Positions 5,408-42,989 of a stretch of 64,000 nt of DNA are shown here, one piece after another. The stretch covers positions 248,001 to 312,000 of the forward strand of contig NZ_CP065800.1 in assembly GCF_023206215.1 (NCBI RefSeq), read 5' to 3'. The position numbers and the translations under genes were made by a program. The stretch's first letter is position 1. Each line of letters begins with the position of its first letter. This stretch comes from Butyrivibrio fibrisolvens (lineage in GTDB: Bacteria; Bacillota; Clostridia; Lachnospirales; Lachnospiraceae). The notes beneath the pieces are model-generated. The model worked only from the letters and a program-made list of their open reading frames with translations, was not told the origin of the DNA and ran no database searches.

Positions 5408-6520
5408 TTAGCGAGCTATTACTGCAAATGGATCTTCAAGATCTGCAAATACATCAGGATAGATGTACTTAGCCATCTCTACCATAGCACTTACTACGTG
5501 CTGGTTGGGCTGATTGAGCTCATTTGAAAGTTCCATAAGATATACATCGCCGTTAGCAACAGCTGTTACATTCTCCCAACCTGAAAGAGCAAGATGAGTA
5601 TCTACTGCATCAGGAGTGAACATATCTGTAGAGATGATAACATCAGGATTTATAGCAATAGCATCCTCTTCTGTAAGTGAAGGCCAGCCTTCCTGATCTC
5701 CTGTAGCATTGATAGCGCCCAGCTTCTCGATCATCTCGCCAATGTATGTGTCTGAACCTGCAGAATAGATTGTAGGATAGTCAGCTGTAGGAGTGTTGGT
5801 CTCATAAAGGACTGTCTTCTTCTCATCATCTGAGATTGTAGATGCAAGCTCTTCAATCTGAGCAAGAGTATCATTCATCTCCTCTAATATAAGTTCTGCT
5901 TCTTCAGATGTACCTGTGCATGCTCCGATGAATGTGATGCTCTCACCGATCTCATCAAGTGATGATGCGCTTGGGATATCAGCAACGCAGATGCCGGCTT
6001 CACGAACAGAGGCATATACATCACTACCTGTAGCATAGCTCATGCCTGTTGTGAATATGATATCAGGATTAAGAGCTACGATTGATTCCTGATCAGGAGC
6101 CATCATATCATACTGAGGAACATCTGCTACAAGATCATCGCCATAATATTCATAAGAATATGTATCGCATGCTACGATATAATCTGAAAGTCCAAGGTCG
6201 ATAAGAAGGCGTGTTGATGAAGGTGACATACTAACGATAGCATCAATCTCTGTAGGTACAGTGATCTCATTGCCTGCAAGATCTGTAGCAGGAGCTTCAC
6301 TCAGTACTATAGCTTCTACTGCAGCAGTCTCTTCCTCAGATGACTCCTCTTGAGCGTTCGATGCAGCAGTATCTGCTTCATCGCTTGCCTTACTGGCAGC
6401 ATCATCTGAATTTTCTGATACAGCTTCATCTTCTTTCTTGGAATCTGAAGATGCACATCCTACAAGCATTGTAAATGACAATGTTGTAGCCATCATTACT
6501 GATAACAGTTTCTTTTTCAT
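5408..6520 (-). CDS. btuF: Corrinoid-binding lipoprotein of ABC transporter
   Basis: A 370-residue solute-binding lipoprotein. MKKKLLSVMMATTLSFTMLVGCASS is a lipoprotein signal with lipobox LVGC. An acidic Ser/Ala/Glu-rich linker follows (about 25-75), then a Peripla_BP_2 (FecB/BtuF) domain: VSMSPSSTRLLIDLGL, then ALNPDIIFTTG, and later INPDVIISTD. The ATG at 6520 is preceded by GGAG with 6 nt spacing, so I reject upstream in-frame starts. It lies directly downstream of the cobalamin riboswitch, which makes corrinoid the likely ligand and explains probable repression when B12 is plentiful. Confidence 0.9.
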   Translation of the reverse strand: MKKKLLSVMMATTLSFTMLVGCASSDSKKEDEAVSENSDDAASKASDEADTAASNAQEESSEEETAAVEAIVLSEAPATDLAGNEITVPTEIDAIVSMSPSSTRLLIDLGLSDYIVACDTYSYEYYGDDLVADVPQYDMMAPDQESIVALNPDIIFTTGMSYATGSDVYASVREAGICVADIPSASSLDEIGESITFIGACTGTSEEAELILEEMNDTLAQIEELASTISDDEKKTVLYETNTPTADYPTIYSAGSDTYIGEMIEKLGAINATGDQEGWPSLTEEDAIAINPDVIISTDMFTPDAVDTHLALSGWENVTAVANGDVYLMELSNELNQPNQHVVSAMVEMAKYIYPDVFADLEDPFAVIAR

Positions 6521-6679
6521 AATATTCTCCATTCTGAAGCAAATCGAATCAGATTTGTATTCTTGATAGTGCTTCGCTATCAGGAACACATATGTTGACA
6601 CATAGGGAATTTTATAAGAACACCGGACAAAAGGGCATAAATGCAAAATATTTGACCGGCACTTATCTATGGTCCCGTA

Positions 6680-6862
6680 GAATCTGTGCCAATATGAGGG
6701 CAGGTATCTGGCTTAGGAACACATTTTGATGGCGCCCTCTTAACTGTATCCGGCAGTTAAGCGCAGCCTTTGTTCCAACACAGTAGCGGCACTGTCCGGG
6801 AAGCTCGCCCGGTTCCCTGTTAGGTTTGCTGCAATCGGATAATTGTAGCAAACACCCACATA
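6680..6862 (-). promoter_or_regulatory. Cobalamin riboswitch
   Basis: Read on the minus strand. The conserved core ACAGGGAACCGGGCG...CCCGG (6798-6820) is followed by the ACAGTGCCGCTACTGT block. After a variable arm comes the B12 box AAGCCAGATACCTGCC (6699-6714). These match the order and bases of the cobalamin riboswitch consensus (GGGAA, CCGCNACTGT, GCCAGGAGACCTGCC). It lies between a sigma-A-like promoter and btuF, about 160 nt before the start codon, so it probably controls translation or premature termination. Exact ends are estimated: the 5' end from the promoter and the 3' end just past the B12 box. Confidence 0.88.
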
Positions 6863-6869
6863 CGTTCGA

Positions 6870-6898
6870 ACCTTACCACAAAACGGACATGTAGTCAA
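6870..6898 (-). promoter_or_regulatory. Promoter of the btu operon
   Basis: On the minus strand TTGACT (6893-6898) and TAAGGT (6870-6875) are separated by 17 nt. Transcription would begin near 6862, just ahead of the first riboswitch helix, which supports the call. Confidence 0.6.
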
Positions 6899-6931: not shown

Positions 6932-7215
6932 GGAGCCTTGTAAAATAGGGCAGATTTCGAGAGGCACTGGCGTGGAGCGGGTTACAAAGGATTTCCGCGT
7001 TATTGAGCGTGTTATAATTCAAGGCATGATATCTGGCTCCTTCTATTCTGGGGGCCGAAACTCGCTTACGCGGGGGCATGCGGCCCCCAATGCAGAATAG
7101 AAGGAGCCATCTATCACGCTCTTGAATTTAATAACACGCTCAAAAAACGCGGAAATCCTTTGTAACCCGCTCCACACCATTGCCTCTCGAAATCTGCCCT
7201 ATTATACAAGGCTCC
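6932..7215. repeat. Giant hairpin element, copy A
   Basis: Two arms of roughly 125 nt (from GGAGCCTTG at 6932 to GGGGCCG near 7057, and from CGGCCCCC at 7081 to CAAGGCTCC at 7215) are near-perfect inverted repeats with only about ten mismatches or small bulges. They close on a loop of about 23 nt containing GAAACTCGCTT. No coding frame is supported. It sits between the btu promoter and the pectinesterase gene. A second element (33147-33433) shares the tip and several internal blocks but has different lower arms that pair equally well. Mechanism unknown: structured RNA, DNA cruciform and mobile remnant are all possible. Confidence 0.85.
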
Positions 7216-12894: not shown

Positions 12895-12935
12895 TCTAGT
12901 ACAACTGCTCATTCATATTTAGAATGTTTAACTTT

Positions 12936-13000
12936 CCAATTGGTCAGAACTATATTCATAAAGATTTTGTGAATATAACTTCTACCAATTGGATTTTTTT
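12936..13000 (+). terminator. Long-stem terminator
   Basis: CCAATTGGT (12936-12944) pairs with ACCAATTGG (12984-12992), with a second inner pairing of ATATTCA and TGAATAT, followed by seven T on the plus strand. It ends the 12112-12894 gene. Confidence 0.8.
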
Positions 13001-33115: not shown

Positions 33116-33146
33116 GATAACTCCTACTGTTTATGTGTCGCGGAAT

Positions 33147-33433
33147 CTTCCCACCCTAGCGGTGCAGTATTAAAAAAGGCTTTGGCGAGTCTGGCAGAAT
33201 ATAAATCATTTCCGCGCTGTTAATTGATTTATAAATTCATGGCATGATATCTGGAGCTTTTTATTCTGGGGTCTGAAACTCGCTTCGCTCAGACATGCAG
33301 ACCCCGGGCAGAATAAAAAACTCCATCTATCACGCTCATGAATTTTATAAATCAATTAAAAAGCGCGGAAATGATTTATATTCTGCCAGCCCCGTCAAAG
33401 CCTTTTTTAATACTGCACCACTAGGGTGGGAAG
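33147..33433. repeat. Giant hairpin element, copy B
   Basis: The left arm starts CTTCCCACCCTAG at 33147 and ends GGGGTCTG near 33275. The right arm starts CAGACCCC at 33298 and ends CTAGGGTGGGAAG at 33433. The arms of about 128 nt pair with few mismatches. The loop again has GAAACTCGCTT and CATG. It fills the gap between vanZ and the nucleoside hydrolase gene; no reading frame is supported. Lower arms share little with copy A, while the tip, ATTTCCGCG and the GCATGATATCTGG/AGCGTGATAGATGG internal loop are shared. Confidence 0.85.
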
Positions 33434-33537
33434 TTTGGTTTAATTATAATTCATTTTGATTCGTGTTTGCCCCAGATCGAATGTGAGATTACGGTTCTTC
33501 CATAAACGCAATGTAGCAGGTGGGAGATCGATAAGGA

Positions 33538-38480: not shown

Positions 38481-39134
38481 CTATTTCTCCCTTCTCATCA
38501 GATCTACCAGATATACGCCATCTCTATCAATAGTATTTGAAATATTGTAAAAACTATCCCTAGCACTTTTATCTCTGGACATTTTCTTGGGATAATAAGA
38601 GGCATTATCAACCTGAATAGCTTCAATAAACTTTAATTTAGAAAAAGCTTTTTTACTCTTAATAAAGTATTGTGTTCCAAGTTCGCCAAGGTACATTGCT
38701 TTTTCTAACTGAGCTATACTGATAGTATTTGAGATGAATGCTCTGGCAAAAGAAAAATAAGAATCATCTGCCCTATATCCCAATATAAGATCATAATCTT
38801 CTAAATCCACATGATAATGGTTCTTTAAATAATCAAGACCATCTTGAGCAATAGGACTATTAATATTAACGTTACGATGCTCCAACAATACAGTCAGCCA
38901 ATGCAAAATAGAATAATCCTTACTGTTAAGATCCAGAATCCTAAGTCCATCAATATCTATTTCATAAGAATTGACAAAACCAGGCCTTTCATCATCTACA
39001 GCCCATTCTTTGGCAAGTTCTAAATGCTTTGTGCAATAAAAACCCTGTCCATAATCATTGCTTATCTTCCCACCTGTTAAAACGGGCTTTTTAATAATTT
39101 TCTCTGAACCGTGATATAAAATGATCTTTTCCAT
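38481..39134 (-). CDS. DUF3990 protein, predicted ADP-ribosyltransferase-like toxin
   Basis: A 217-residue protein. It begins MEKIILYHGSEKI, then GGKISNDYGQGFYCTKHLELAKEWAVD (about 20-46). YHGS followed by Y/F-G-Q-G-F-Y-C-T matches the His and Tyr/Ser motifs of the ADP-ribosyltransferase fold in DUF3990 members; later EYxID-like blocks such as SYEIDIDGLRILDL follow. A C-terminal Glu expected for catalysis cannot be assigned with certainty. The ATG at 39134 is chosen because AGGAG lies 6 nt ahead; the ATG at 39140 would touch it. NAD-dependent modification of a host target is inferred from the fold only. Confidence 0.78.
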   Translation of the reverse strand: MEKIILYHGSEKIIKKPVLTGGKISNDYGQGFYCTKHLELAKEWAVDDERPGFVNSYEIDIDGLRILDLNSKDYSILHWLTVLLEHRNVNINSPIAQDGLDYLKNHYHVDLEDYDLILGYRADDSYFSFARAFISNTISIAQLEKAMYLGELGTQYFIKSKKAFSKLKFIEAIQVDNASYYPKKMSRDKSARDSFYNISNTIDRDGVYLVDLMRREK

Positions 39135-39144
39135 AAACATCTCC

Positions 39145-39198
39145 TATACTTCTCTGGAAGTATAATTATATTATAACTCTGTAGAAGTATAGTTGCAA
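39145..39198 (-). promoter_or_regulatory. Promoter with operator palindrome for the DUF3990/HTH pair
   Basis: On the minus strand TTGCAA (39193-39198), 17 nt, TATAAT (39170-39175). TATACTTC-N4-GAAGTATA (39145-39164) is a perfect 8-bp inverted repeat between the -10 and the RBS, and a further half site CTATACTTCTACAGAG lies within the spacer. Confidence 0.65.
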
Positions 39199-39226
39199 TT
39201 TGTGGAATGAAGTAAGTGAATTATCT

Positions 39227-42856: not shown

Positions 42857-42862
42857 CAAGTG

Positions 42863-42882
42863 TATTTGACGCGCGTCAAATA
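42863..42882. repeat. 20-bp palindrome, copy 2
   Basis: TATTTGACGCGCGTCAAATA, identical to copy 1. It lies just after the 32-bp repeats in the divergent intergenic region. Confidence 0.85.
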
Positions 42883-42907
42883 TTGTTTTATCATTATTGT
42901 GTGTTCA

Positions 42908-42927
42908 TATTTGTCGCACGTCAAATA
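42908..42927. repeat. 20-bp palindrome, copy 3 (degenerate)
   Basis: TATTTGTCGCACGTCAAATA differs from the other copies at two positions. Its start lies 45 bp from that of copy 2, so both could be bound on a similar helix face. Confidence 0.7.
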
Positions 42928-42989
42928 AAATTCATACACATGATATAAATACAAATTATAGTTGTACCCTAAGATTATGGAGTATTACG

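Follow-up and report, generated by a model that had tools for sequence, protein, structure and literature searches.

Two giant hairpins in the window

The window, a stretch of 64,000 nucleotides, covers positions 248001-312000 of contig C1 in the genome of Butyrivibrio fibrisolvens (4.45 Mb, two contigs; G000 below) and contains two giant hairpins. Copy A (6932..7215, tip oriented on the plus strand; C1:254932-255215 in the genome) is located between a periplasmic binding protein gene, which has a cobalamin riboswitch, and a pectinesterase gene. Copy B (33144..33436, plus strand) is located between a VanZ-like gene and a nucleoside hydrolase gene. The riboswitch (RF00174, 57.4 bits, minus strand) occupies positions 6682-6874, upstream of the binding protein gene (5408-6646) and 57 nt from copy A. 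The two copies are the longest inverted repeats of the window when arms at most 600 nt apart are considered; further, shorter inverted repeats with arms of 28-38 nt were seen at 12935-12993, 39129-39207, and 42858-42932.

The earlier note on this DNA had described both copies as giant hairpins, and folding bore this out. Copy A was predicted to form one single hairpin of 284 nt with a minimum free energy of -220 kcal/mol (z -28.47), the segment 33147-33433 of copy B reached -186.8 kcal/mol (z -25.00), and in both cases none of 200 shuffled sequences folded as well, which rules out chance palindromes. The arms of copy B extend to 33144-33436. The features said to be common to both copies were present as described, namely the tip, the ATTTCCGCG block, and an internal mismatch of GCATGATATCTGG versus CCATCTATCACGC, and so was the compensatory change between the tip stems of A and B. 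The estimate of about ten mismatches proved too low, since the arms of copy A are 88% identical over 135 alignment columns, gaps counted.

In copy A, the apical stem GGGGGCCG/CGGCCCCC spans positions 7050..7088 of the plus strand. The tip consists of AAACTCGC at 7058-7065 and, at 7070-7078, of GCGGGGGCA in place of the common 3' half GCTCAGACA. This rarer GCGGNGGCA form, on which the earlier note had not remarked, was found in 4 of 109 own-genome copies, and the common motif in 92. Below the tip, a conserved one-base bulge is formed by GGC (7023..7025, plus strand) and GCTC including the unpaired T (7118..7121, plus strand); a block of the GCTCNTGA type is present in 100 of the 109 copies. Copy B carries the common tip motif, AAACTCGC-TTC-GCTCAGACA, at 33276..33295 of the plus strand (C1:281276-281295), and the two sides of its GGC/GCTC bulge are found at 33241..33243 and 33334..33337, again on the plus strand. 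It also has a left terminal repeat that is degenerate in comparison with (C)AAACTTCSCACTTG (AATCTTCCCACCCTAG, 33144..33159, plus strand) and a right one (CTAGGGTGGGAAGTTT, 33421..33436, plus strand). Copy A is probably old, because it has no recognisable terminal repeat.

Copy number in the genome

When 96 bases of the core of copy A were used as the query, G000 had 41 matches, including copy A's own reverse strand. A covariance model, R1, which was built from 30 copies, yielded at least 149 matches (150 of 2691 candidates scored) and, after opposite-strand matches of the same place had been dropped, at least 111 places. The two weakest of these scored below 60 bits. C1:7596 and C1:4112409 probably represent a single place, since roughly the first 9 kb of C1 recur as its last 9 kb (offset about 4,104,814 bases); the chromosome is therefore likely to be a circle of slightly smaller size. 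The tip was recognised by script in 109 copies, and about 110 copies of the foldback element is a lower bound for this genome. The elements have a median length of 294 nt (range 92-419) and a median arm identity of 0.88. They have no coding capacity: in 103 full-length copies, the longest ORF had a median of 58 aa and a maximum of 97 aa.

Terminal repeats, target duplications and an empty site

The analysis of the element's ends and flanks covered G000. Intact copies are about 300 bp long and are bordered by terminal inverted repeats, (C)AAACTTCSCACTTG. The end motif CAAACTTCSCACTTGS occurred at 216 sites with at most two mismatches, compared with 5 sites for the reversed control pattern. Both ends were found in 54 of the 109 copies, one end in 21, and none in 34, so that most copies are not demonstrably intact transposons. 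In 19 of the 54 two-ended copies, the flanks contained a 9-base repeat with 8-9 matches, whereas 2.75 were expected from swapped partners; perfect repeats (9/9) numbered 7 versus 0.55 expected, and repeats with 7/9 matches or fewer were as frequent as expected. These target duplications are AT-rich and about 9 bp long, and older copies lack them. Element and one duplication together measured 303-309 bp at all seven sites with a perfect repeat.

One site, that of C1:994426, was tested for an empty counterpart. When the flanks were joined, they aligned unbroken to the congener G102 (query positions 1-468, 74%). In a second congener, G061, the same gene pair is separated by a shorter spacer that has no element. 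Both congeners carry copies at other places.

Deleted forms were also found. In 7 of 18 orphan-end loci, a remnant of 44-45 bp joins about 30 nt from the left arm to 14 nt from the right end, and other loci hold longer remnants. The same short remnant is present at L101, L102, L193, L196, L200, L201, and L202; it is perhaps the product of recurrent deletion between short CCAA repeats, or a mini-element in its own right. No transposase gene was found between matching ends in the 18 orphan-end loci that were read. At one locus, L098, a 177-bp remnant is adjoined by an IS1634-family transposase gene (574 aa; L098:1375-3743, C1:2374-4742 of G000). This insertion sequence, however, has different ends and is flanked by a perfect direct repeat of 205 bp, which begins inside the end of the deleted hairpin element. 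Long duplications are typical of IS1634.

Together, the terminal repeats, the target duplications, and the empty site indicate a mobile, MITE-like foldback element. The element is MITE-like by all tested features except one, as a parent transposase was not found in the loci read. The copies are thus above all mobile elements, a reading that the earlier note had not proposed.

Covariation and copying between the arms

Changes on both sides of the arms were counted between copies in three identity classes. They numbered 164 versus 5.3 at 93-97% identity, 1454 versus 72 at 88-93%, and 17 versus 0.5 in the remaining class, with copy pairs that are not independent of each other. Similarly, 23 of 33 core pairs had changed on both sides in 32 sequences from several congeneric genomes, and one-sided changes were few.

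The internal TC/TC mismatch is present in its usual form in 99 of the 109 copies. In six copies, the right arm has been rewritten as the complement of the left, and the mismatch has been erased; five of these six are nearly identical and perhaps go back to one or two events. In a further copy, C1:2899234, both arms match at this site in another sequence. The mismatch was dropped as a conserved feature, since it has been lost in some copies. The erased mismatches point to arm-to-arm copying, of which they are the footprint. Gene conversion or template switching between the arms, which the earlier note had offered as the alternative to selection, has therefore left direct traces. Its statement that selection keeps the shape was supported for the tip and one bulge, which are constant while the arms change; for the arms, selection is not needed, although it could have helped the copying.

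The tip in other genomes and phyla

The covariance-model search for homologues that had been proposed was carried out, and the same tip with covarying stems was found in other genomes, as the earlier note had predicted; as far as homologues are concerned, the refutation that it had set thus failed. Members of R1 were present in 7 of 61 genomes, the own genome included. A second model, R2, had matches in at least 23 of the 79 genomes of the genus (42 candidates scored per genome) and in at least 10 of 344 genomes of the order (9 candidates scored per genome). When the weakest order-wide matches were folded, L224-L227 formed such a hairpin and L228 and L229 did not. The hairpins of congeners are of similar size and have other arms, yet the tip is the same and the GGC/GCTC bulge is kept.

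The tip motif can be written as stem-AAACTCGC-N-GCTCARACA-stem. The pattern AAACTCGC-N2-16-GCTCARACA was found in 24 of 398 genomes of the phylum, and the reversed control had none among the matches listed. In named genomes, at least 118 stretches contained the pattern (80 listed with titles; many of the records are MAGs). Isolates with the match inside a hairpin include Ralstonia, Variovorax, Herminiimonas, Flammeovirga, Cellulophaga, Clostridium magnum, Cellulosilyticum, and Baia. At least eight contiguous pairs directly bordered the tip in 64 of 128 matches, compared with 0 of 128 when partners were swapped; a convincing stem was absent in about a third of the 128, and some distant matches, for example in G779 and G680, have short stems only. 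In 79 loci with at least six Watson-Crick pairs, the stem begins directly 5' of AAACTCGC and usually one or two bases 3' of ACA. By eye, the arms in seven distant genomes are common within a genome or genus and not between genera. Also by eye, further internal-loop blocks (CTACGGCTCA/TTTCGCC and CTAA/TTAAG) seem to recur in the distant hairpins L391, L252, L241, L245, L299, and L279. Carriage by phages was set aside; 103 stretches were found among 2.9 million viral contigs.

The presence of one tip on otherwise unrelated hairpins in several phyla suggests a wide class of mobile hairpins. In the PMC literature, which mostly leaves out subscription papers, we found no paper that describes the tip, no match to it as 17-base strings, and no report of miniature inverted repeats for Butyrivibrio. 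As far as these searches go, it has not been described before that a single tip passes between arms that are unrelated.

Genomic context of the copies

All 13 close pairs of opposite orientation in G000 run with the tip first on the plus and then on the minus strand, as do 9 of 10 such pairs elsewhere, the own-genome pair excluded. Placement relative to genes was determined with simple ORF calls, which are crude. With these, the left end was at most 40 nt from the stop codon in 40 of 58 copies that have a plus-strand gene at the left, and at most 40 nt from a gene start in 23 of 51 cases. The right end was within the same distance of a stop codon in 22 of 54 cases and of a plus-strand gene start in 1 of 55 (p 7.5e-8 for the bias in placement at 5' ends). 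An unusual neighbour gene was rejected after 517 ORFs near tip hairpins had been clustered, as the largest cluster comprised 8 loci. Cargo between paired elements was likewise rejected: two pairs enclose ORFs that, judged by eye from their translations, resemble gamma-carbonic anhydrase and dephospho-CoA kinase, and the 107-aa ORF enclosed by a third had no Pfam match.

Proposed recognition of a mobile hairpin by shape and tip

The best reading is that these are REP/MITE-like mobile hairpins recognised by their shape and tip. The whole explanation, in which both hairpins of the window belong to a mobile foldback element that is non-autonomous and present in high copy number, is on balance probable. 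The element would be moved in cut-and-paste fashion by a transposase acting on double-stranded ends, with a 9-bp staggered target, and would fold when single-stranded or extruded. Through template switching from arm to arm, one arm may be copied time and again into the complement of its partner; the shape would then persist while the arm sequence drifts. We infer that the tip is the recognised part: a protein would bind it as DNA or as RNA (internal loop AAACTC/TCARACA with a GC/GC clamp) together with the GGC/GCTC bulge, because these parts alone stay constant where copying would erase asymmetry. The hairpins matched no Rfam family, and neither a parent transposase (18 orphan-end loci read) nor a linked gene was found.

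More tentatively, the hairpins may belong to a cross-phylum superfamily that inherits shape and not sequence. In such a superfamily, the tip AAACTCGC-N-GCTCARACA would be a tag for a transposase or a host factor, and the arms of each lineage would be free to change by template switching.

Alternative explanations

A role as structured RNA is a weaker explanation than a mobile hairpin, and we regard it as rather improbable. The hairpin would then be transcribed on the strand CTGTYTGAGC..GCGAGTTT, the tip, the bulges, and the pairing would be selected as RNA, and the spread would be a side effect. Conservation of bulges and tip and the biased orientation of copies near genes would agree with this. 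Selection at the RNA level should lead to more G-U than A-C pairs on the transcribed strand, and on the tip strand of G000 A-C pairs indeed exceeded G-U pairs, which means G-U wobble on the other strand (307 versus 131 in 105 copies; 162 versus 107 beyond 70 nt from the tip). The cross-phylum set had the same sign (A-C 130 versus G-U 79; loci 42 versus 16, p 9e-4). However, the sign was opposite in the congeners (G-U 103 versus A-C 63; loci 20 versus 7), and part of the excess in G000 is made by one conserved A-C position. The wobble count for 16 phylum-scan loci was 15 versus 29. Moreover, pairs have changed on both sides with few one-sided intermediates, and the patchy distribution, the target duplications, and the empty site indicate mobility. 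Rfam 15 gave no match at the gathering score: on the window, it returned the cobalamin riboswitch alone and nothing on the hairpins, and in 14 loci at E <= 0.5 it returned a nearby tRNA, three microRNA-family matches below threshold on hairpins, and one match to 6S-Flavo. Strong covariation alone is no proof of a functional RNA.

It is unlikely that the element is an ordinary MITE for which the terminal repeats are the sole recognition site, with arms that are alike through template switching and a tip inherited from an old ancestor with horizontal spread. The ends, the duplications, and the stumps are present, copying between arms was seen, and the asymmetry of the tip would be the slowest to homogenise. 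As far as the accessible text of PMC10969869 goes, the element also shares with prokaryotic MITEs, among them Chunjie of Geobacter, Correia/NEMIS, ERIC, and QMITE2, the small size, the lack of coding capacity, the many copies, the terminal inverted repeats, the intergenic position, the formation of stem-loops, the short target duplications in young copies, and the presence of partial and deleted copies. Unlike in MITEs, nearly the whole element of about 300 bp consists of two paired arms, whose sequences change in concert from copy to copy; what is conserved is the tip, and this is found again in other phyla with arms that are unrelated. All 17 bases specified in the tip are shared by distant genomes on arms with no similarity to the eye, where the terminal repeats apparently differ too, and in G000 the exact motif is kept in 92 of 109 copies. 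A shared tip on unrelated arms argues against a neutral tip, since a neutral loop should diverge before the arms.

That the hairpins are REP/REPIN-type elements, recognised in folded form and moved by a tyrosine transposase of the IS200/IS605 kind (RAYT), is very unlikely, and this mobilisation was rejected. Tyrosine transposase genes (Y1_Tnp, PF01797) did not co-occur with the hairpins over 35 genomes: they were found in 16 of 17 carriers, G033 being the exception, and in 17 of 18 non-carriers. None of the three such genes in G000 was flanked by an adjoining tip hairpin or end motif. To our knowledge, 9-bp duplications are not expected of the RAYT mechanism. The high copy number, the occurrence in many phyla, the close opposite pairs, and the position near gene ends do resemble REPs and REPINs, which are described in the available portion of PMC3733652 as GTAG- or CGTC-tagged palindromes with RAYT transposases. 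In that description, REPs are 20-40 bp long and have the tag at the foot of the stem, whereas the giant hairpins measure 40-390 nt and have the constant motif at the tip; they also fall outside REPs by their size (median 294 nt in G000) and by Y1 transposase linkage.

That the hairpins are regulatory or termination elements placed at gene ends is extremely improbable in spite of the placement bias described above (40 of 58 left ends near stop codons, 1 of 55 right ends near plus-strand starts), since insertion plus purifying selection against blocked promoters gives the same bias, and simple scans of both window copies revealed no terminator or promoter beyond shuffles, except that promoter-like matches were slightly more numerous than expected around copy B (5 versus 2.2 +- 1.4).

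Relation to other hairpins and significance

Integron attC sites are folded single strands that are recognised via a few unpaired bases and have poor sequence conservation. The signatures of attC are located at the base of the hairpin, whereas the constant motif of the giant hairpins lies at the tip. Quasipalindrome correction, a form of template-switch mutation (Monttinen and Loytynoja 2022, PMC8794818), has in common with our observations that hairpin arms are homogenised in one event; in the accessible part of that paper, the concern is with rRNA stems, and here it is with a mobile element family that has arms of about 140 bp. An intrastrand-triplex motif (PMC4666352) was rejected as a counterpart on the basis of its published description.

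If the proposed explanation is true, repeats that seem unrelated genome by genome form one family that can be recognised by its tip only, and clustering by sequence would miss such a family. The tip would then be a probe for fishing out its recognising protein, and the 110 or so copies in one genome would be natural replicates for measuring template switching in long palindromes.

They would also be material for asking how bacteria tolerate long palindromes. Loss of SbcCD, a nuclease that acts on hairpins, was rejected as the reason for tolerance, since G000 has an SbcD frame (452 aa) with a match of 170.9 bits in two stretches. Among congeners, 37 of 79 had an SbcD match above the cut-off. 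The family match is split in the frame of G000 (C1:851119-852015) and likewise in that of G061 (441 aa), and lengths of about 380-420 aa prevail among the remaining SbcD matches of the genus.
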